From the NCBI GenBank assembly GCA_020216745.1, contig JAIWNQ010000130.1:1-10000 (forward strand): a stretch of 10,000 nucleotides of DNA. Direction: 5' to 3'. The position numbers and the translations under genes are program-made. Below are positions 1-9,882 of the stretch, one piece after another. Below the pieces are notes generated by a model, which was not told the origin of the DNA, did not search any database, and was given only the letters and a program-made list of their open reading frames with translations. The stretch comes from Candidatus Hydrogenedens sp. GTDB lineage: Bacteria; Hydrogenedentota; Hydrogenedentia; Hydrogenedentales; Hydrogenedentaceae. Each line of letters begins with the position of its first letter. Position 1 is the stretch's first letter.

Positions 1-3000
1 GCCCAACCTATCGGATTGTGCTTGACTTACATCCGGCTCTGCCCTGGCTGTCCATTTCCGTAATCGGTCGTTATATGCCCAGTAGCGATAAATTAACGGC
101 TCTTTAAAGAAACTAATAAATCCTAAGGCACGATTACCCCATGGAAATTCGGAATATAACATAAATAATCCATCAGATAAATCTGCAGACGGAGGATAAA
201 CGCGAACAAAATTGTCAGGGTCCGGCTCTGTCGGTGTATCAGGACCAAAGGATACAATTGCTGATTGGAATGAATCGCCTGGACTAATTGACGGTGAAGT
301 CCGAATCACTACAAAGAAGTCCGGTCCATATCCATTCTCACTTGGACAATCTCCAAAACATACTGGAATCGGCTGACGAAGACGGGGTTGAGATACGTAA
401 GGCGTTCCACCTTGAGATGAATCCCGACCAGTACTATTATCTGTCCCCGGAGAAGAGAATACAAATCGTACCTGATATCTCGGGTCACCAGGACGTGAAT
501 ACCATACCGGAGCTGAATCCAGTCGTAAAGGCAAGTCAATATATTCAATTTCACCGTTTGAACCTATTATAGGCGGGTCAAATACACCATTTGTATTCTT
601 TGGGTTCCAATCATTATCACGCCATATAGAAACACCGCTCAATTTATCATTAGCAGGGTCTTCTTCATTCAAAGGCAACAAATCTGTATACGGGTCAAAA
701 CTTTGATTCGCTTGTAAATCTACAGAATAAAACTCAACGATAACCTGTTCTAAAAACGTCGGGTCCTTTACAATATACCACGGACTTCCATTCCTTGGTG
801 TTCCTGCTCGAAGACTCAATGTCCTACTTTGGGCACCAGTTATTTCAAAGGCTTCCACACGTTTATCGACGTCTCTCTCAGTATTGCCGTACGCAACCAG
901 CCATAAACCGGTTACATTTTTCGTCCATGCACCATTAGAGAAATACGTTGTATCACCTACATTAGGAATAACTATATCATTTGTATCCGGTGCAAATGAT
1001 TTATCTCCACCAGCAGCACCAGTTCCATTTCCATAAGCAATTAAATTGTTAACTCGGTTCATCGAAGCATCGATACCTAATATGGAAATAGGCTGTCCAC
1101 CTGGGGTTATCACTGGTGTTGTAATACCACTGGTTGACGGGGGAAGTAACGCATCTGTTAAATCTACAACTCGTGCAGGAACACTCACTTGAAGCATATC
1201 ATGACCATAAAAATCCTGCAATCCGCCTTCTTCGGGATTCGTCTTCCATGCTCCACCACGGGACGTTAAACCACCTTGTGATAAAATGATTCCAGCAAAT
1301 TGAGACGACGTTGGAGATCTGTCGGGCAATCGTGCCGGAATAACACAACGAAACTCTTCAAAAGCACTTACCGTATCTGATGTGCGAATAACAACAAATA
1401 AATCATCACCTCGGTGACCACCTTCAGTAAGGGCTTTGGCACTCTTCTCATACGGAACAACATTTGCAACACCGTTATCGTTAAAATCAGCATTTAAAAT
1501 ATCCAAAAGTAGAGATTTCTTTTTAGAAAACGCAAGTTTTTCAGTTTCTTTTATGTCTTTCACAAGTTCTAAAGGTATAGGTGATACGGTTTCTTCATTA
1601 GCACCTGAATCTAAACTCTTAGCACTACTTGGCGGATTGGCTCCACCAGCACGAAAATCTGATTGTGGGACTGTCCATGGCTTTGCTGGAGTTAACTGCA
1701 ATACCCATGCAAGGTCCTTCAATCCATCCCAGACTTTCCTTTGTGCTGATGATAATTGTGGACGTTCCGGATCTGATAAATCGACAACACCATCCGTTAC
1801 AATTCCATCACCACTCAAATCATCCGGGATATTATCACCATCTAAATCCACAGGTTCTGGAGCAATCCCCCATTCTAATGACCCCGGAACTAATGGCACA
1901 ATTTTATCTATAAATGTAGGGATTGGGGCTTTATCAAAGAAAAGCGGTCCTGTAAAAACACCATCATTGTTCGTATCCTCATAAAGCAGAACACCAGATG
2001 AGGGCAATGTGCCTCCAGTGCTATCCAGAGGTGTTAAATCAGATGGGTCAAACTCCGGCCCCCAAAACGCTATATACATACTATTTAATGCTACCGGTCC
2101 TAATTTATTAACAACTGGGTCATCTGCACCGGCAAGATTTAGTCCTAACACCGCTACTGGCTGGGACTTATATTCCACTTTTTGTCGTAAAATTCGTGCC
2201 GCCCTTGCTTCTCCATTAGCACCCGAAATCACCGTATTGCTACCCCAACCCAAAGGCCAATCTGCCATTTGCGGATATCGATTTCGAGACATAGCGTTCT
2301 TCGTTACTAACCACGGTCCCCTCTCTACTGCATTAGCTTTACCACCCTTTACACCATAAGGATACTGAGATACAACTAATTTATTTCCATTTGTTAAATA
2401 TGGTGCAACATATGCTGAATGAGCATTTTCAAGAGTTAAGACATTTCCATTATTACTAACGATATAATATCTTCCACCATTATTATCAATAAACCACCAA
2501 CCTGAAAGGTCGACTCCACCAAAATTGCCATCTAATAACTCCGCATAGTAAATATCATTCTTGTAAGTGTCCCATACTTCGCTCCATGTTTCAATATCAT
2601 TTGGGTCCTCGTTAGGGTCAAAATGGTAATACTCAAGGTTATCTGTTAAACTCCCCTCATCAGCATAAATAATGCACCGTGTTCCAAAATTAGTTAAATC
2701 CAACCTTATAGGCCATGTTGTATAATCTGGGAGTGTCGGTTGGATAAACGGCTTCGGATAATATATACTCCGAGGAACAAGTGCACGTGGTAATAATGTG
2801 TCATCAAATGTCGGTTCAAATGGCACGGTTTCAAACGAATATTGGAATGACGTCAACTCATCAAGATTCGGTATCTGATAACCTGTCCAGAAAACACCTT
2901 CCGAATAATCAGGCAAGAATCCAGGATTGTATATATACTTTACCGCATTAGTTGGACGTAACAAAGGATTATCTGTAGTATCTAAAACGAAGTCTCCAGG

Positions 3001-5874
3001 AGGTGCAAGACCAAGAAGGAATCTTTGGTTAAAAATACCAAACACATCAAAACCAGTATTTAAATTCATAGGTGGATCTATCCATAATCCGAGATACGTC
3101 ATCCCCCTTGTCCCCCTCCAATCATACCAAAGAAAATTTGCATAATTCTGAAGGACATAATGATTGCCAACACCAATAGGAAGCGGTTGTGTTGGATGTA
3201 TATATGTTTCCCTTCCAAATGTATTATCGGTGCTGTAGGTCATGACAAGGTCATGGACTTCAAATCCAATTCTTTGTGGCTTTACGTTATCCTGTATATG
3301 TTCTCGTTCATGCCACCACGGCCGATTTATCTTGCGATTCACTTCCGACGTAGAACCAATAGGATATGTATCATCTATCCACGGCGTATCCTGTACATAT
3401 TTCTTTGTCTTGGCTAAATACATATTTGAGAACCAAATTCCTCCATCCCAGTGCCCCCCATCTCTCGGATTCCAACGACGTGGCTCAATAAACGCACGGA
3501 AATCACCTCCAAAGGTAGCCCCCGGACCTGAAGTCCTACCCGATATGTCCTTCTTACCACTATTGGTTCTTAACACTACAAAGTAGTCAGGTTTCTCTAT
3601 AGCGGTATTAGGCACACCAGGTTTATAATAATCTGCAACAGGTTCAAAATATCCTGTGGGATCATCGTCTGGACATCTCCTTCTACCTCCCGAAAATCTT
3701 AACCGCACTTTCCACCACGGGTCACCACCACCTGGTGGGAAAGGTTCGTATTCCCAATAAATCTTTGTATCAACTAAACCTCCCTGCTCATAAGTGGCAG
3801 GGTACATTGGACAATCAAGAAACGAAACACCATATGTGCTACCAGAACTATCAAGTGGCACCGGAGGGTCAAATATTCCGTTTCCTCCTTCCGATTTTTC
3901 ATGAGTATCGTGATAGAGCCACACACCACTAAATGCATAATCGTTCTGAACAGCTATAGAACAATCTCCTGCAGATGAAGTTGTTATTGGCTCCAAAGCA
4001 TAATTGGGATTAAATCCTCCATTTCCTGGTGGACCAAATGGGTCTCCACCTATATCGGTCAATATTAGATTTAGTTCCCAAATTTGTGCTGAAGGGTCTC
4101 CATGAGCATTAATACCTAACACCGGTATCCATGAATCTACAGGTAAAACATGTCTTAAATCCAATATTTCCCCCGTAACTGCTTCTATAAATGTGTCGGA
4201 AATATCCCACCTTGGTCTTGTATGCTCAGGCACAGGAGTATACATAAAGAAGGGCCAAGATGATATATTCCGTTCTGTTCCAGGACGGTAACCAAAAATA
4301 GTATCACCTGTCAAATCATAAACATTAAAATGCCCTGTATATTGGTTATTCTCATTCATCACTTCACCCTGATAAAAGTTCGGACTATATGAATCCACAG
4401 GCTCACCCGTACTTTGAGTTAGAAAACCCCCAACCCCATATTGCCAATACGGGAATGGGATTGAATCCACAATAGATGATAAGTTAGGACCACTATATGG
4501 TTGCATTCTCGCCATCAAAAGAGACGTTCTCATTGTATTCTCATTATTCCACTTAAAACTCATCCGCACCGCTACAATGTAACTCAACCCAGGGTCAGGA
4601 CCAGCGGTCACCCATTGTTTTGAAGCATATCCACCAGCGAAATCAACACTGCCATCCGTATTATTAATCTTTACGAATGGGAATAACTCCGTGGGTGGAC
4701 TATTCCGTGGATTTACGGCTGCAAATGGGTCAATTGGGTCATACAATGAACTTTGAGGATTCATAGTAAAATTAAGGTTATAAGTTAAGTCTTCTGAAAA
4801 CTGACCATATGAATTAGGCATTTCATAAGGATACCCATACCTATCCCACGTTAACATAGGCGTTCCAGGGTCTACTCGAAATGCATTTGCAGTCCCTCGA
4901 ACATAAACCAGCCTACCATCATACATCAGGTTAAACTCATCATCAGGCTTATTTTCAGGTCCCCAATCAACAAACAAACCAAACTCTAAAATGTCTTCCG
5001 GTTCTAAAGTCCCTTCCAACTTATAATAAAGTTGAGTTAATGCTCTCGGTGCAGGCTGGTCAGGATTGTATTTCATATTAAACCTGAAAAGGGGAAGCCA
5101 ATCATTTAGAGGAACAACACCTTGTCCATTTGGAATTAAATCTTTTGCCTCAAACGAAGCAGAAGGAACTTGTTCACCTTCTCGAACAATTATATAATCC
5201 GACTTATAAATAGGTGGCTGGCCAACTGGAGGGCAATCAACATATGTATTCCCTGTAGGGTCATTGGGGTCTTTAATCCGAACACGCATACCTATCGTAT
5301 ATCTTCCCCCGGATTGAAAATAGGGAGTATTTTGCCCACCTATAAGAAATACTTGATTTTCAGGGGTCACTAATGGTTGATACGATTGATTTACCCGAAA
5401 TTCCCACCACGCCTCTGTATAATTTGTAGTAGGAGGCACACCTCCAACATTCGTGCTAATGTACCATGTAATATTCGTAATGTTAGGGACATCATTAGGA
5501 CCAAACGATGGGTCAAGTCTATAAACCAATTTAAACCCCACAGCCAAAGGTGCCGCACCATCTGTCGGTTCCCCAATAAAATTAAGGTCTATCTGGCCAC
5601 AATTAGCAAATACAGGATTTCCTATCTGGCTCTGTGTTAATGAGGGGAGGATTTTCACTAATGCATCTGTCGGAGCTGACGATGCAACTTGTATTCTGTT
5701 CTCAATACCCTTGGTTTCTGCATTCGTATTTACCGTTACTGATAAGTTCTGTCTAAAATCATCTGCCCTTGTATATTTCTCTACAAAAAAATCGTAGCTT
5801 ATGTCTAATGCAATAAATAAAATCAAAACTATAAAAAACAACATCGGCAGGGAAAATATACTTATCCGTTTCAC
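1..5874 (-). CDS. Giant modular exported or surface protein, 3' end beyond the window
   Basis: I read this frame line by line: there is no stop in 1958 codons from GTG at 5874 to the left edge, so the protein exceeds about 210 kDa and its C-terminus is missing. Residues 1-25 have a basic start (MKRIS) and a hydrophobic stretch (about 8-24), which suggests a signal peptide or membrane anchor; no clear cleavage site is visible. Residues about 94-232 resemble a PKD-type beta domain. From about 580 onward a large module recurs three times, marked by V-L-G-I-N, S-G-V-x-L-Y-x-D, V-R-L-x-F-S and F-V-V-I-R-T. The protein is rich in Pro, Gly, Asp, Asn and aromatic residues, as in extracellular beta-rich repeat proteins. 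No catalytic motif is convincing. It has its own promoters and follows the transporter operon. I recognise no family for the main module; adhesin, sheath or surface-layer roles are guesses. Confidence 0.9.
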   Translation of the reverse strand, partial: MKRISIFSLPMLFFIVLILFIALDISYDFFVEKYTRADDFRQNLSVTVNTNAETKGIENRIQVASSAPTDALVKILPSLTQSQIGNPVFANCGQIDLNFIGEPTDGAAPLAVGFKLVYRLDPSFGPNDVPNITNITWYISTNVGGVPPTTNYTEAWWEFRVNQSYQPLVTPENQVFLIGGQNTPYFQSGGRYTIGMRVRIKDPNDPTGNTYVDCPPVGQPPIYKSDYIIVREGEQVPSASFEAKDLIPNGQGVVPLNDWLPLFRFNMKYNPDQPAPRALTQLYYKLEGTLEPEDILEFGLFVDWGPENKPDDEFNLMYDGRLVYVRGTANAFRVDPGTPMLTWDRYGYPYEMPNSYGQFSEDLTYNLNFTMNPQSSLYDPIDPFAAVNPRNSPPTELFPFVKINNTDGSVDFAGGYASKQWVTAGPDPGLSYIVAVRMSFKWNNENTMRTSLLMARMQPYSGPNLSSIVDSIPFPYWQYGVGGFLTQSTGEPVDSYSPNFYQGEVMNENNQYTGHFNVYDLTGDTIFGYRPGTERNISSWPFFMYTPVPEHTRPRWDISDTFIEAVTGEILDLRHVLPVDSWIPVLGINAHGDPSAQIWELNLILTDIGGDPFGPPGNGGFNPNYALEPITTSSAGDCSIAVQNDYAFSGVWLYHDTHEKSEGGNGIFDPPVPLDSSGSTYGVSFLDCPMYPATYEQGGLVDTKIYWEYEPFPPGGGDPWWKVRLRFSGGRRRCPDDDPTGYFEPVADYYKPGVPNTAIEKPDYFVVLRTNSGKKDISGRTSGPGATFGGDFRAFIEPRRWNPRDGGHWDGGIWFSNMYLAKTKKYVQDTPWIDDTYPIGSTSEVNRKINRPWWHEREHIQDNVKPQRIGFEVHDLVMTYSTDNTFGRETYIHPTQPLPIGVGNHYVLQNYANFLWYDWRGTRGMTYLGLWIDPPMNLNTGFDVFGIFNQRFLLGLAPPGDFVLDTTDNPLLRPTNAVKYIYNPGFLPDYSEGVFWTGYQIPNLDELTSFQYSFETVPFEPTFDDTLLPRALVPRSIYYPKPFIQPTLPDYTTWPIRLDLTNFGTRCIIYADEGSLTDNLEYYHFDPNEDPNDIETWSEVWDTYKNDIYYAELLDGNFGGVDLSGWWFIDNNGGRYYIVSNNGNVLTLENAHSAYVAPYLTNGNKLVVSQYPYGVKGGKANAVERGPWLVTKNAMSRNRYPQMADWPLGWGSNTVISGANGEARAARILRQKVEYKSQPVAVLGLNLAGADDPVVNKLGPVALNSMYIAFWGPEFDPSDLTPLDSTGGTLPSSGVLLYEDTNNDGVFTGPLFFDKAPIPTFIDKIVPLVPGSLEWGIAPEPVDLDGDNIPDDLSGDGIVTDGVVDLSDPERPQLSSAQRKVWDGLKDLAWVLQLTPAKPWTVPQSDFRAGGANPPSSAKSLDSGANEETVSPIPLELVKDIKETEKLAFSKKKSLLLDILNADFNDNGVANVVPYEKSAKALTEGGHRGDDLFVVIRTSDTVSAFEEFRCVIPARLPDRSPTSSQFAGIILSQGGLTSRGGAWKTNPEEGGLQDFYGHDMLQVSVPARVVDLTDALLPPSTSGITTPVITPGGQPISILGIDASMNRVNNLIAYGNGTGAAGGDKSFAPDTNDIVIPNVGDTTYFSNGAWTKNVTGLWLVAYGNTERDVDKRVEAFEITGAQSRTLSLRAGTPRNGSPWYIVKDPTFLEQVIVEFYSVDLQANQSFDPYTDLLPLNEEDPANDKLSGVSIWRDNDWNPKNTNGVFDPPIIGSNGEIEYIDLPLRLDSAPVWYSRPGDPRYQVRFVFSSPGTDNSTGRDSSQGGTPYVSQPRLRQPIPVCFGDCPSENGYGPDFFVVIRTSPSISPGDSFQSAIVSFGPDTPTEPDPDNFVRVYPPSADLSDGLFMLYSEFPWGNRALGFISFFKEPLIYRYWAYNDRLRKWTARAEPDVSQAQSDRLG
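238..1092 (-). repeat. Module copy R3 of the giant protein
   Basis: Residues about 1595-1879. Landmarks are PISILGIDAS (1595-1604), SGVSIWRD (1746-1753) followed by TNGVFDPP, YQVRFVFSS (1800-1808), GPDFFVVIRTS (1850-1860) and SFQSAIVSF (1868-1876). It contains the second S/T-G-x-W element between the first two landmarks. A possible disulfide or turn is CFGDC at 1839-1843. Whether further copies follow cannot be seen because the gene leaves the window. Confidence 0.6.
1336..2160 (-). repeat. Module copy R2 of the giant protein
   Basis: Residues about 1239-1513. Landmarks are PVAVLGLNLAGADD (1239-1252), SGVLLYEDTNNDGVF (1293-1307), a worn WVLQL (1390-1394) where R1 has VRLRFS, GDDLFVVIRTSDT (1489-1501) and EFRCVIP (1507-1513). 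R2 is longer than R1 because of an insert holding an acidic calcium-type loop and a lysine-rich linker (1439-1453). Confidence 0.6.
1777..1848 (-). other. Acidic calcium-type loop in the giant protein
   Basis: Residues about 1343-1366 begin DLDGDNIPDD and continue SGDGIVTDGVVDL. Aspartates at 1343, 1345, 1347, 1351 and 1352 give the D-x-D-x-D spacing of thrombospondin type 3, dockerin and EF-hand loops. A second similar spot is DTNNDG at 1300-1305, and a third is DFNDNG at 1463-1468. Calcium binding is inferred from these spacings; it would stabilise an extracellular repeat protein. Confidence 0.45.
2380..2529 (-). repeat. Short S/T-G-x-W element, copy a
   Basis: Residues about 1116-1165: VDLSGWWFIDNNGG (1121-1134), YYIVSNN and NVLTLENA. 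A related block is at about 1653-1691 (NVTGLWLVAYGN, then VEAFEIT and RTLSLRAG), inside module R3. Both pair a G-x-W strand with a closing L-x-L strand. The similarity is weak but ordered, and R1 has no clear equivalent. Confidence 0.35.
3475..4131 (-). repeat. Module copy R1 of the giant protein
   Basis: Residues about 582-800. Ordered landmarks are WIPVLGINAHGD (582-593), SGVWLYHD (649-656) with GNGIFDPP after it, WWKVRLRFSGG (720-730), PDYFVVLRT (762-770) and DFRAFIEP (791-798). The same order recurs in R2 and R3. The copies differ greatly between landmarks, so the duplication is old and visible only at protein level. Confidence 0.6.
5179..5592 (-). other. PKD-like beta domain in the giant protein
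   Basis: Residues about 95-232. GAAPLAVGF at 106-114 resembles the opening strand of PKD domains (G-x-x-P-L-x-V-x-F). WY at 137-138 sits where the core tryptophan strand is expected. SGGRYTIGMRV (188-198) and SDYIIVRE (225-232) match the closing strands (G-x-Y-T-V and a terminal I-x-V). The domain is longer than a usual PKD unit of 80 to 90 residues and lacks the common W-D-F-G-D core, so it would be a diverged copy. PKD domains are typically extracellular, which supports export. Confidence 0.4.
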
Positions 5875-5882
5875 AGTAATGT

Positions 5883-5888
5883 TCTCCT
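5883..5888 (-). promoter_or_regulatory. Ribosome binding site deciding the GTG start of the giant gene
   Basis: AGGAGA lies eight bases before GTG at 5874-5872, the same motif and spacing as the DUF4340 gene. An in-frame TAA at 5895-5893 closes the frame upstream, so no ATG, GTG or TTG lies further out. The next in-frame ATG, ten codons later, would cut away the basic N-terminus before the hydrophobic segment. Confidence 0.7.
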
Positions 5889-5900
5889 TCTTTTATCAAT

Positions 5901-6070: not shown

Positions 6071-6100
6071 ATCATAACTATTTCTTTATAATTATGTCAA
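6071..6100 (-). promoter_or_regulatory. Best-matching candidate promoter P3 for the giant gene
   Basis: A perfect TTGACA (6100-6095) is followed after 18 bases by TATGAT (6076-6071), five of six matches to the consensus. This is the best box pair in the gap. Transcription would begin near 6064 and give a leader of about 190 bases before the GTG at 5874. That leader would contain the possible short ORF at 6040-5969. Confidence 0.5.
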
Positions 6101-6328: not shown

Positions 6329-8221
6329 CTATCTTTCTTCTACATGTTGAATAGACTTCATGAGGTCTTTAATCAAATCCAATACCTCTTGCTTAATGAG
6401 ATACACCCCGTCTTTGCCCTCTTTTTTAGCCCATCGATAACGAGAGTCTTTTTCATCAGGCAAACCAATAATTAATGCACCTGTTATCATAGGTACACCT
6501 TTCCCCTCATTATTCTGTATAACTGAAAGTTTTGCAATCGGTTCTGTAATTTTATTTTCCGCTTCTTGATGTTGAACTTCAACTGCACTCATTGATGATA
6601 AATATCGTAATAGTCGTAATAAATCCCCCTGATTTTTTAACACCTTATTTTCAGGTTGTTTTACAGTCCAATTTTTATCTATTTGCTGGAAAACATATTC
6701 ATTTGATTCATAATTTAAATGGAATTCTGTTATTTCGGAGGGCGAGAAACGATACAAAATTAAACTTCGGAAATTCTCTGGCAATACCCATAATTGAGAA
6801 ACAATATCATTTGAAACAATCCCAATCTCTCCTGTGTCCTGGTTTATATAACTATGGAGATTATCATCTGGAATAGGCATATAACGGATTTCGATTGTAT
6901 CCTGATTTGCCATTGTAAATTTTAAAACATCTTTACACTTATCCAATCCACGAGATTCCACCGTTCCACCTGGGAAACTTTGTAGTTCAAGGATTTTTAA
7001 CCTGCTAATATAATCATTTATTTTTAATGAATCAATATCATCTATCGATGGCTGTGTCATCATCCAGCCTTTCTCTGTGTTCTTTTCAAGTGAGAATACA
7101 ATAGTATTTTCATCTAACCGTTCAATTTTTACTATATTCGTAAGATCTTTTGTAAAAATATGGCGATTCCGAAAACTTTCAGGTGAATGTGGTAACAATT
7201 CCAAAATATGAGGGTCTAATAAAAATACAGAATTCTGCCCTGAAAGTTTTGCAAAGACACCTGTGCAATCAGAAAGCTTTAATCGTTTCCTTTTCTCTTT
7301 ATCCTTCTCCTGTGTACTCTGCCCTGCGGTTTGCAAACCTCCTAAAAATAAAGTCTGTGGTCTCTTTTCTTTTGCATCATAATACGTTAGTCGGCATCTT
7401 GGAGGTTCCAATCCGTAATCGGATAAACTCTCGGGTTTGTCAATAAAGTCTCTACCAATTCCAAATTGTATTTCTGATGATAATGCATTAACTGCTTCCT
7501 GGTCTGCAAGTCCCTGAGAAGGAGATACAAGAAACCATGGTTCATTTTCATTTTTTCGCTCCATTATCACAATTACTGATTCCTCTCCTACCTTAGGCAT
7601 ATATTCTGAGTTTTGCATTTCATCGTCTTCCGTCCATATTCTTGCAAACTCAATTCGCACAAGTGGAACTTCCCTCACCGCAACAAGAAAACGAAATCGC
7701 AAATCCTCCAATGAGCGATTTAACTCAAAAAACTGTTTATCGTCAACAAGAAAAACCTTACCTTTTAATCCCATAGCATATCGATATGTATTAGTTGGAT
7801 CTAAAAAGCCGAAATCAAGTTCTATTGGTTCGTTAATTCCATCTACTACCGCTTTCAATTTTAATGTTGGCTTGTCCAAACCATAAGCTGATTTATCATC
7901 CACTTTTTCAATTATCGTCCGCTGATTTTTTAACTCTGATAAATGTTTTGCTATACGGTCCCACATTAATTGAAATGCTGGTATATCTGGTGAAGGTTTT
8001 TCAAAACTCCATTTTCCGTCAATATCTTTTTTCCCCACACACAAAGGTCCTCCTGCCTGTTGGAGATGAAGTTCCCGTACCGATTCTGGTGCAAATGAAA
8101 ATATCTTCTTTGCTTCTTCATAAACAACCTTCTGCTCTTCCTTCCACCAATTTGAAAACCAATATAGGAGGATTAACACGGATAAAATTAAAACTAAAAT
8201 TATTGTATTACGCCACTTCAC
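6329..8221 (-). CDS. DUF4340 domain-containing protein with four diverged repeat units
   Basis: Complete 630-residue protein starting at GTG. Residues 7-24 form one transmembrane helix; the rest is soluble and probably outside the cytoplasmic membrane. DUF4340 units typically open with a W-x-x-x-x-P strand, carry a Y-G-L-x-x-P motif and close with a Phe/Leu-Arg-rich strand. I see four: W71-P76 with YGLDKP (113-118) and LRFRFLV (174-180); W229-P234 with YGLEPP (269-274) and FRNRHIF (350-356); W386-P391 with a worn SRGLDK (423-428) and FRSLILY (484-490); and W518-P523, where Y-G-L-x-x-P is lost. The family is known mainly from its position beside GldF/GldG-type ABC genes and has no proven function. 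Here it is translationally coupled to the GldG-family gene, so it is most likely a subunit or accessory of that transporter. The domain call is confident; the role is inferred from context. Confidence 0.85.
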   Translation of the reverse strand: MKWRNTIILVLILSVLILLYWFSNWWKEEQKVVYEEAKKIFSFAPESVRELHLQQAGGPLCVGKKDIDGKWSFEKPSPDIPAFQLMWDRIAKHLSELKNQRTIIEKVDDKSAYGLDKPTLKLKAVVDGINEPIELDFGFLDPTNTYRYAMGLKGKVFLVDDKQFFELNRSLEDLRFRFLVAVREVPLVRIEFARIWTEDDEMQNSEYMPKVGEESVIVIMERKNENEPWFLVSPSQGLADQEAVNALSSEIQFGIGRDFIDKPESLSDYGLEPPRCRLTYYDAKEKRPQTLFLGGLQTAGQSTQEKDKEKRKRLKLSDCTGVFAKLSGQNSVFLLDPHILELLPHSPESFRNRHIFTKDLTNIVKIERLDENTIVFSLEKNTEKGWMMTQPSIDDIDSLKINDYISRLKILELQSFPGGTVESRGLDKCKDVLKFTMANQDTIEIRYMPIPDDNLHSYINQDTGEIGIVSNDIVSQLWVLPENFRSLILYRFSPSEITEFHLNYESNEYVFQQIDKNWTVKQPENKVLKNQGDLLRLLRYLSSMSAVEVQHQEAENKITEPIAKLSVIQNNEGKGVPMITGALIIGLPDEKDSRYRWAKKEGKDGVYLIKQEVLDLIKDLMKSIQHVEER

Positions 8222-9882
8222 TTTACCCTTCTCCTAACAAAATACGCAATCAAACCTGCAATTAAAACTAATTGCGGTGTTAACATTACAGAACACCAAA
8301 TAAGCCATCGCTTTTGCATATCAGACAAAACAATAGGCTTATCTTCTTTTATCGACGGACGAATTGAAATTAGTTCATCATGTTCTGTAAGCCATGCAAG
8401 ACTATTTAGAAGGAAATTGATATGACCACCAATACTAATACGTTCATTTGTTATAAAATCAGCATCCCCAACCACTACAAATCGGCTCCTTTTTTTTGAA
8501 CCATCAGATAGTTCTTTACTACATGTTCCAGCCACAGCAATAAACAAAGGACCTTGCTTCTCTTCAGGTTCATACTTAACAGCACCCCCTTCCGCAAGCC
8601 TTGACAAATCCGTCTCTGCCCAATATTCTGGTGGTGTTCTCAATATAGGAACTACATTGGTATTCTCTGGCAAATTTTCTATTGGTTCTATTGTCCGTAC
8701 GGCCCTTAACAACAATGGCTGGTCCATTCGCTGTGTAATAGGATGGTCAGAACGAAAGGAACCCCGATACTCAAATAACCCTTCTTCTACATTTTCAAAC
8801 GGCTTTGGGTCAGAACGTAATTCAATCTCCCATGGATTTTTTTTCTGCGTCGTAAATGCAATGTTTGAACCAACATCTACTCCTAATTTTTCTTTCAACC
8901 ATGGACGAAGATATTCTACACCACTCCTACCTAAACGAACATCTACCCACGGCTCAAAAAACACAATAAGTCGTCCACCATTATCAAGGAAATCCTGAAT
9001 TGCCTTTAATTCTTCACGACTTAAATCCCCTTTCGGATTATGTATTATAACAACCTCATAACTTTTGGGAACTTCTGGCAGGTCAATCCGAATCTGAAAA
9101 GGTTCTATCTTATAAGATTCTCCTTCAATAATAGCCCTTGCCATAGAAATACCATTCGGATTCGAATCATCAAGGGGCGTTTCATCATGTCCAGTAAGAT
9201 AACCTATTTTTGTTTCCGTTTCTTTTAGAACACTAATAAGAGCCTGCGTAAAATCCCGTTCTTCCATCCGTGGATTGGCACCGCTTAACATAATAACACG
9301 TTGACGATTTCCACATTTTAGCACTACCGTTCCCTGGGTCGAAGCATGGGTAATGGACAATGCCTCTAAACGTGCTCGGTCAATCTGTGGGTCTAATAGT
9401 TCAACATTCAAAAAGGGTGTATGCCTTTTACATTGTTCAAGAAACCGTAATGTTTTATCTTTTGCAATTACTACAGACTCTTCATCAGTATTAATAAAAA
9501 AGCATAATACCTTTACTTCTTTGTTCATAGTCTCTAAAACTTTGACTGTTTGAGGAGATAACGTTCTACGACCTTCCTTTGTCAAGTCCACAGAAATATC
9601 CCACCGCAAAACAAAAGCATAGATAACGATACATATCCCTAAAAAAGACAAGGATGAAATCAATGCACTCAAACCCGAACCTGCCCTACCTGACCAGCCC
9701 GATTCTACTATAATACCCCGAATTACAAAACCTAACCACAAAATGCCTGTAATTAAAAAAACACCACCTACTAAAAGAGCCCACACATTAAAAATCTCTT
9801 GCTTCCACACTAAAAAATTTAAAACGCCTAATAGACTGATTACAGATATAACACCACAAAGTCTCTTCAATGACCATTTCAT
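8218..9882 (-). CDS. GldG-family ABC transporter auxiliary protein
   Basis: Complete 554-residue membrane protein. Residues 8-25, 32-56 and about 70-93 are hydrophobic helices; one more helix is at about 525-548, followed by a basic tail (RRRVK). The large middle part should lie outside the cytoplasm. Family signatures are visible: DLTKEGRRTLSPQT at 99-112 (the D-L-T-x-x-x-R-x-T-L-S-P block), YLTGHDE at 228-234 (matching the family's G-H-x-E) and VVVGDADFITNE at 469-480. GldG proteins accompany GldA/GldF ABC transporters. In flavobacteria they are needed for gliding; in other phyla the substrate is unknown. The gene lies 17 bases after the permease and overlaps the DUF4340 gene by four bases (GTGA), so the three should be co-transcribed. 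Three N-terminal helices are more than a simple GldG needs. Family membership is firm; a gliding role is not implied. Confidence 0.85.
   Translation of the reverse strand: MKWSLKRLCGVISVISLLGVLNFLVWKQEIFNVWALLVGGVFLITGILWLGFVIRGIIVESGWSGRAGSGLSALISSLSFLGICIVIYAFVLRWDISVDLTKEGRRTLSPQTVKVLETMNKEVKVLCFFINTDEESVVIAKDKTLRFLEQCKRHTPFLNVELLDPQIDRARLEALSITHASTQGTVVLKCGNRQRVIMLSGANPRMEERDFTQALISVLKETETKIGYLTGHDETPLDDSNPNGISMARAIIEGESYKIEPFQIRIDLPEVPKSYEVVIIHNPKGDLSREELKAIQDFLDNGGRLIVFFEPWVDVRLGRSGVEYLRPWLKEKLGVDVGSNIAFTTQKKNPWEIELRSDPKPFENVEEGLFEYRGSFRSDHPITQRMDQPLLLRAVRTIEPIENLPENTNVVPILRTPPEYWAETDLSRLAEGGAVKYEPEEKQGPLFIAVAGTCSKELSDGSKKRSRFVVVGDADFITNERISIGGHINFLLNSLAWLTEHDELISIRPSIKEDKPIVLSDMQKRWLIWCSVMLTPQLVLIAGLIAYFVRRRVK
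8230..8235 (-). promoter_or_regulatory. Ribosome binding site deciding the GTG start of the DUF4340 gene
   Basis: AGGAGA stands eight bases before a GTG codon at 8221-8219, inside the end of the GldG-family gene. The start and the upstream TGA stop share the four bases GTGA, which suggests translational coupling. The ideal spacing supports GTG as the true start. Confidence 0.7.

Follow-up and report, generated by a model that had tools for sequence, protein, structure and literature searches.

The closest described systems are surface-layer proteins encoded beside a type II secretion system (T2SS). The S-layer genes slr4 of Pseudoalteromonas tunicata (PMC7821379) and npdA of Paracidovorax citrulli (PMC10765051) each adjoin a T2SS cluster, and in both cases the authors regard dedicated export as possible. 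Mature NpdA has a mass of 52 kDa, and VapA of Aeromonas salmonicida is cited in the same paper as a further T2SS-linked S-layer protein (PMC10765051). Two C-terminal sorting systems, both concerned with the surface display of T2SS cargo, form a second point of reference: the MYXO-CTERM/myxosortase system, whose tripartite tail has an invariant Cys, a transmembrane (TM) helix, and a basic end (PMC11980579), and the GlyGly-CTERM/rhombosortase system, with a short motif, a TM helix, and a basic end (PMC3237569). For the phylum Hydrogenedentota, a genome paper predicts a Gram-negative wall (PMC11406978), and the word "secretion" is absent from the searched text of that paper and of PMC10866078. 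In the literature on the phylum as covered by title and opening abstract, with subscription papers mostly outside this scope, no report of the protein described here was found.

The window, that is, the whole analyzed stretch of 10,000 nucleotides from a Candidatus Hydrogenedens sp. genome, carries the N-terminal part of a giant gene. It is our assessment that the giant is probably a structural cell-surface protein, most likely a component of a coat (S-layer-like), which would be exported by the T2SS and anchored through its C terminus. The features of the window are as follows:

1..5874, minus strand: gene of the giant putative surface protein, N-terminal 1,958 codons, 3' end missing at the contig edge
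5800..5874, minus strand: signal-like N terminus, a basic start and then a hydrophobic run (by eye)
10..5181, minus strand: unit 1, residues about 232-1955; unit 2 is its recurrence in the missing C-terminal half
4435..5178, minus strand: segment D1 of unit 1, residues 233-480
3175..4197, minus strand: segment D2 of unit 1, residues 560-900, with a D-Y-F-V-V-L-R-T motif
2305..2697, minus strand: stretch in unit 1 that is absent from unit 2, residues about 1060-1190
1150..2202, minus strand: segment D3 of unit 1, residues 1225-1575, with DTNNDG and DLFVVIRT motifs
10..957, minus strand: segment D4 of unit 1, residues 1640-1955, with a DFFVVIRT motif
5884..5889, minus strand: ribosome-binding site AAGGAG, 9 nt before the GTG
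6071..6100, minus strand: candidate sigma-70 promoter, TTGACA/TATAAT, 11/12
6329..8221, minus strand: DUF4340 protein of 630 aa, directly upstream of the giant
8218..9882, minus strand: ABC_transp_aux/GldG-like protein of 554 aa

From the GTG at position 5874 to the contig edge at position 1, the minus strand is free of stops over 1,958 codons; in this interval, its other two frames contain 131 and 189 stops. An open frame of this length has a chance of about 10^-63 at the window's 38.8% GC, and simulation of 300 sequences of 10 kb gave open runs of 269 codons at most, in agreement with the first-pass annotation, which had held the frame to be beyond chance. The good start described there is borne out by the position of the GTG behind its ribosome-binding site and by its conservation in the same-genus genomes G002 and G003. 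The stop codon and the C-terminal part had been placed outside the window, and the same-genus orthologues P0095 and P0096 indeed have 3,819 codons, with about 73% identity across the whole window protein. There was no sign of the sequencing or assembly join that had been considered as a refutation: the frames of these relatives are uninterrupted, so that an assembly artefact was rejected, and none of the giant matches among the matches listed contains an internal stop. The frame is genuine and lies inside a gene whose same-genus counterparts have the full 3,819 codons. As the contig (G000:C29) is exactly 10,000 bases long and ends at the window edge, this assembly offers no sequence into which the gene could be continued, and no further match to the giant was detected elsewhere in G000. 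A scan of the window with Rfam gave no match.

Additional insight is gained when the window is placed into the context of the complete orthologues. Here, a hydrophobic N terminus is followed by unit 1 (about residues 227-1960). Two PKD domains and a linker rich in Gly and acidic residues lead over to unit 2 (about residues 2187-3559), behind which come IPT/TIG-like segments and, at the end, the Cys-TM-basic tail. The two units can be aligned over two long stretches with 31 to 35% identity (E 3e-92 and 1e-105), and unit 1 has an insertion at about residues 1050-1192. The protein-level repeats that had been noticed within the window are real, though diverged, as D2, D3, and D4 are related by profile comparison, with HHalign probabilities of 97% for D2/D4 and D3/D4; the D2/D3 pair reaches 82%, over a short stretch, and the similarity of D1 is weak (26% to D4). 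In an unrooted tree of 35 segments, labeled by frame position except for the truncated unit 1 of G026 (by similarity), 14 unit-1 rows form one group (100/100) and 11 unit-2 rows another (90/92), with eight single-unit rows on the unit-2 side and two rows unlabeled. This topology fits a single, old duplication of the unit, and the single-unit forms of family f5 (and f3) may either have lost unit 1 or have diverged before the duplication. Among such forms, P0045, P0062, P0072, and their relatives are giants of about 2,400 to 2,550 residues joined to further domains, and the Pfam accessions precomputed on single-unit relatives include PF01344 and PF13229, which we take to be kelch and right-handed beta-helix families.

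As the part of the giant inside the window comprises the N terminus and unit 1, this part matches no family over cut-off. In the Pfam and NCBIfam searches, its one sub-threshold Pfam match was NAGPA (E 0.11, 13.1 against 25 bits), and profile searches of PDB sequences gave no relative for unit part A1 and one chance-level match for unit part A2 (E 0.096). The view that the frame belongs to no recognised family is thus upheld, as these searches yielded no full-length characterized match. The only parts of the giant that match known domain models, namely, the PKD and choice-of-anchor/IPT-like segments, all lie outside the window. NF058597 ("choice-of-anchor Z") matches two stretches of P0095 with 30.8 bits, against a cut-off of 30, and one stretch of P0096 with 27.5 bits, or 31.5 when the last 200 residues are taken alone. 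The Pfam IPT/TIG model has no match on P0095 or P0096 and is precomputed for many relatives.

The distribution of the giant is broad within one phylum. The full window protein was matched in 51 of 60 relatives, and residues 466-1956 were matched in 56 of 68 Hydrogenedentota genomes, all of one order, including 35 of the 38 of good quality; such a spread argues for a coat. A species-representative collection contained 13 loci, with MAG labels of Hydrogenedentota or Hydrogenedentes for 10 and "uncultured bacterium" for 3. When a profile of 18 single-unit proteins was compared with 5.8 billion proteins, scoring the 7,990 candidates with the most shared words, 97 matches were obtained, the last of which (P0146) covers 8% of the query. 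Organism names are absent from most of these matches, and the named ones are all from Hydrogenedentes/Hydrogenedentota except P0099 and P0036. These two are MAG proteins labeled Bathyarchaeia and Nitrospiraceae, respectively, both giants of the Hydrogenedentota type, and the labels probably reflect mis-binned MAGs. Restriction of the family to the phylum Hydrogenedentota is, from these searches, well supported, if not proven. The expectation that homologues would be confined to a few related genomes did not hold, as the family is phylum-wide. Of the proposal of a lineage-specific surface or secreted protein, lineage specificity is supported, with the whole phylum as the lineage, and the secreted or surface location fits the evidence as an interpretation.

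A second conserved element is the gene that follows the giant. Gene order was checked at 54 loci in 50 genomes, and 41 loci (40 genomes) were counted whose sequence runs at least about 500 bases past the stop of the giant. For this count, L099 of G021 was taken and L098, where the upstream detection was wrong, dropped, duplicates in G009 and G033 were counted once, and G056b (19 bases of room) and giants without a stop in the stretch were left out. In 39 of the 41 loci, the next gene encodes a matrixin-like membrane protein of about 830 residues, here called the partner, and this constancy favors the coat reading. The partner is a separate gene in 37 cases, with a gap of -142 to +230 nt by match position and an interrupted match in G033, and it is fused in frame to the giant in two, as counted after removal of CFI-box and other ends common to both proteins. 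Examples of the partner gene are found at L010:20764-23265 and L062:8369-10825. The exceptions to adjacency are G020, whose giant has a dockerin-like C terminus by eye and no partner within 5 kb, and one of the two copies in G025. The fusions, in G027 (L083/L084) and G035 (L081/L082), are confirmed by open-frame lengths and correspond to P0092 (100% to G027) and P0052 (99.5-99.7% to G035). At their joint, the Cys-TM-RRR tail of the giant runs straight into a signal-like segment belonging to the partner, and as the two stand back to back, the fusion products may still be separated by processing.

At a presence threshold for the partner of E under 1e-25, 52 of the 68 genomes have both genes, 4 the giant alone (G000, where the contig ends, G020, G056, and G062), 5 the partner alone (G030, G034, G039, G061, and G064), and 7 neither. 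In all five partner-only genomes, the contig breaks off either within the partner gene or no more than about 150 bases upstream of it, where the giant would be expected; that contig ends accompany 5 of the 12 giant misses in this way is again a point in favor of a coat. Pfam analysis of the partner in G002 gave sub-threshold matches to matrixin (PF00413, 21.9 against 24 bits) and to an EF-hand stretch, and PF00413 is precomputed for some database relatives. The CFI-box-CTERM model (NF041770) also matches this protein, with 42.9 bits against a cut-off of 40, at a place that precedes a hydrophobic segment. A search for the partner family, with the same 7,990-candidate scoring as for the single-unit giants, gave 156 matches, and the organism-named ones among the 120 listed are all from Hydrogenedentes, Hydrogenedentales, or Hydrogenedens.

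The linkage extends to the T2SS. Of the 35 loci with room, 23 have GspC as the next gene behind the partner; the count excludes G004, G005, G041, and G054, where the contig ends after the partner. This arrangement supports a coat exported by that route. The adjacency holds for 23 of the 24 loci outside family f10 (the exception is G011) and for none of the 11 inside it, and its absence in f10 and G011 is a point against. Three same-genus genomes show the kind of T2SS adjacency known for slr4 and npdA, and the window's contig ends before this position. In G002, GspC, GspD, and GspE were identified by Pfam. The frames of G003 follow on in gsp-cluster order as far as GspM, with names assigned from position and the look of the N terminus only. 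Nine of the 11 f10 genomes have a full-length GspC elsewhere, on another contig in eight and about 12 kb away on the opposite strand in G057; G027 has pieces of GspC only and G018 a PDZ-like match only. Downstream of the pair, two f10 genomes without an adjacent T2SS have genes for an MFS transporter and a peptidyl-arginine deiminase (PAD_porph) (L010:23567-27235 and the counterparts in L009). A further point against comes from G019, G024, G028, G032, and G038, which keep GspC and seem truly to lack both giant and partner. It follows from these five genomes that the T2SS has other cargo and that the coat is not essential to the phylum. The other genomes with neither gene are G040, without a GspC match, and G065, with a PDZ-like match only.

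As read by eye, the C termini of the giants fall into two main types, with three giants showing neither and the end of f8 lying outside the available sequence. Type A, represented by 26 distinct tails in families f1, f2, f3, f6, f7, f9, f10, and f11, combines a Cys, present in every case, with a loosely kept GD, a hydrophobic stretch, and basic residues (by eye). Type B consists of a CFI-box-type end and a hydrophobic stretch, in 11 tails (one f4 and ten f5). The curated CFI-box-CTERM model (NF041770, cut-off 40) was exceeded in all three single-unit giants scanned, with 84-88 bits, and was found in none of the five scanned two-unit giants, which are all Cys-tailed and include one from the window's genus. 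The replacement of the Cys tail by CFI-box-CTERM in the f4/f5 forms is in keeping with a coat. When NCBIfam CTERM models were applied to five type A tails, none scored over cut-off; the best sub-threshold model was MprA_tail (14.7 against 19.7 bits), and GPS-CTERM also remained below threshold on the same single tail.

A 46-position profile built from 11 type A tails was compared with eight genomes at E up to 1, and 55 matches were found, namely, 8 giants and 47 others. Among the best 20 of the 47 (E up to 0.007), 18 end 0-11 residues before a stop, 12 of them in frames of over 1,000 residues, and one of the other two matches has a stop inside it. These tail-bearing C termini (L153-L170) belong to frames in G002, G003, G012, G016, G022, G037, and G047; L160, in G016, is a frame of 4,417 residues. 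When the bodies of the tail-bearing proteins were compared with three giants, two matched around the PKD region only and the rest not at all, and several bodies are related to one another. A motif, a TM helix (by eye), and a basic end thus stand together at the C termini of several unlike proteins. This recurrence is a further point for the coat reading, and, by analogy with known tails, it is the pattern of a candidate sorting signal. Searches for rhombosortase and CPBP proteins did not identify a sorting enzyme for the type A tail, which counts against the reading: CPBP/Rce1-like proteins occur in 8 of 8 genomes and also in 11 of 14 controls, and rhombosortase was over cut-off in 0 of 8 and sub-threshold in 8 of 8 genomes as well as in 14 of 14 controls.

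The giant may be transcribed from a promoter of its own. The candidate in the window has counterparts at the aligned position in G002 and G003, which score 12/12 with a 17-nt spacer, and in all three genomes the TTGACA/TATAAT pair ends 196-235 nt before the start; simulations produced an equally good candidate in 45 of 1,000 cases for the window, 0 of 1,000 for G002, and 1 of 1,000 for G003. The perfect consensus in G002 and G003 is a further point for the coat reading. The giant ranks third of 25 frames in G003 and second of 26 in G002 by codon adaptation, with all genes close together, so that codon usage speaks weakly for high expression. Upstream of the locus, a protein of 987 residues with a signal-like start (L002:383-3343, minus strand) is conserved in G003 and matches no Pfam family.

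These observations may also be read without a regular coat. The giant could be a surface adhesin or biofilm-matrix protein with the same export and anchoring, a possibility to which we give a modest chance. Its size, its modular build with PKD and IPT/TIG-like segments, and its internal duplication would suit an adhesin, and the further domains joined to the single-unit relatives are what a binding protein would be expected to have. The distribution of adhesins tends to be patchy, whereas the giant is widely conserved at a fixed locus. A more specific variant, which we consider improbable, is that the giant is the moving adhesin of a gliding-type machine, similar to SprB, the moving adhesin of the gliding machine, and powered by a GldA/F/G-like ABC transporter with DUF4340. 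The genes immediately upstream indeed encode an ABC ATPase, an ABC-2 permease, a GldG-like protein, and DUF4340 in 17 of 50 genomes, not counting the window's own, where the last two are present; in the remaining genomes, the set is absent or too little upstream sequence is available. The GldG-like gene of the window exceeds the cut-off of ABC_transp_aux (PF09822, 94.9 against 34.7 bits) but falls far below that of the NCBIfam GldG equivalog (51.8 against 389.85 bits). Moreover, the full set stands beside none of the f5 loci examined, some of which have little upstream sequence, whereas the partner stays.

Many T2SS cargoes are enzymes, and it could be speculated that the giant is a very large extracellular enzyme, or the substrate of a protease, with the matrixin-like partner as the processing protease. 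The zinc motif HExxHxxGxxH, intact in 17 of 37 partners, would be in line with this idea, which we nevertheless rate as quite unlikely, as no enzyme family scores over cut-off in the giant and the motif is lost in 20 of the 37 partners. The losses comprise 11 of 11 partners in f10, 8 of 10 in f5, and the single one in f6. TPLNN, which follows the zinc motif, is kept in the 11 f10 partners and the f6 one and changed in 7 of the 8 f5 partners that lack the motif. By their sequences, the partners without the zinc motif are likely pseudoproteases.

Returning to the coat as the preferred reading, we infer an export route, an anchoring, a coat function, and a role of the partner from the observed gene with its architecture and internal duplication, its occurrence across the phylum, its linkage to the partner and (outside f10) the T2SS, and the recurrence of its tail. 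Sec would carry the giant through the inner membrane, where its C-terminal Cys-TM-basic tail (or the CFI-box-TM tail in f4/f5) would hold it, and it would fold in the periplasm. The T2SS, encoded just downstream in most families, would then move it across the outer membrane, and the processed tail might keep it attached to the surface, with the matrixin-like membrane partner acting on or binding the giant during export. Given the loss of the zinc motif in 20 of 37 partners, a conserved role of the partner in binding or quality control is more likely than one in cleavage. A more far-reaching version, which we put forward only tentatively as a whole, is conceivable: a phylum-specific coat could have arisen from an ancient, internally duplicated giant and use a dedicated pathway of Sec, a new Cys C-terminal sorting tail, a processing enzyme yet to be discovered, a matrixin-derived partner that is a non-catalytic assembly factor in several lineages, and, in most families, a T2SS in the same gene cluster.

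Knowledge of cell envelopes in uncultured phyla is scarce, and the Hydrogenedentota would gain here a widespread marker surface protein and an export locus that can be tested. The Cys-TM-basic tail adds a candidate C-terminal sorting signal that has no model in NCBIfam release 20. Loss of the zinc motif within a fixed gene pair offers a natural case of a protease possibly turning into a binding partner, and the in-frame fusion of the partner to the giant in one genus is part of the same case.

In comparison with matrixins (peptidase M10, PF00413), the partner shares the zinc motif in the intact cases; it has in addition a CFI-box, a hydrophobic segment, and a C-terminal part that is conserved and matches no family. 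CFI-box-CTERM is common to the single-unit giants scanned and the G002 partner, whereas the two-unit giants scanned carry the Cys tail. That tail is likewise tripartite when placed beside MYXO-CTERM and GlyGly-CTERM, with, in rough outline, an invariant Cys, a loosely kept GD, a TM segment, and R/K, and differs from both in that no curated tail model is matched over cut-off in the five tails scanned. With Slr4 and NpdA, the giant has in common that the gene of a (here putative) surface protein stands beside a T2SS cluster (outside f10); its hydrophobic, basic N terminus, seen by eye, may be a Sec signal. It differs in its length of about 3,800 residues, its duplicated unit, its PKD and IPT-like modules, its C-terminal tail, and its matrixin-like partner. 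As no sequence relation to these proteins was detected in the Pfam/NCBIfam searches or the PDB profile searches of the unit, membership in their family is not claimed; by analogy of gene neighborhood outside f10, the giant likely works like a T2SS-linked surface-layer protein.
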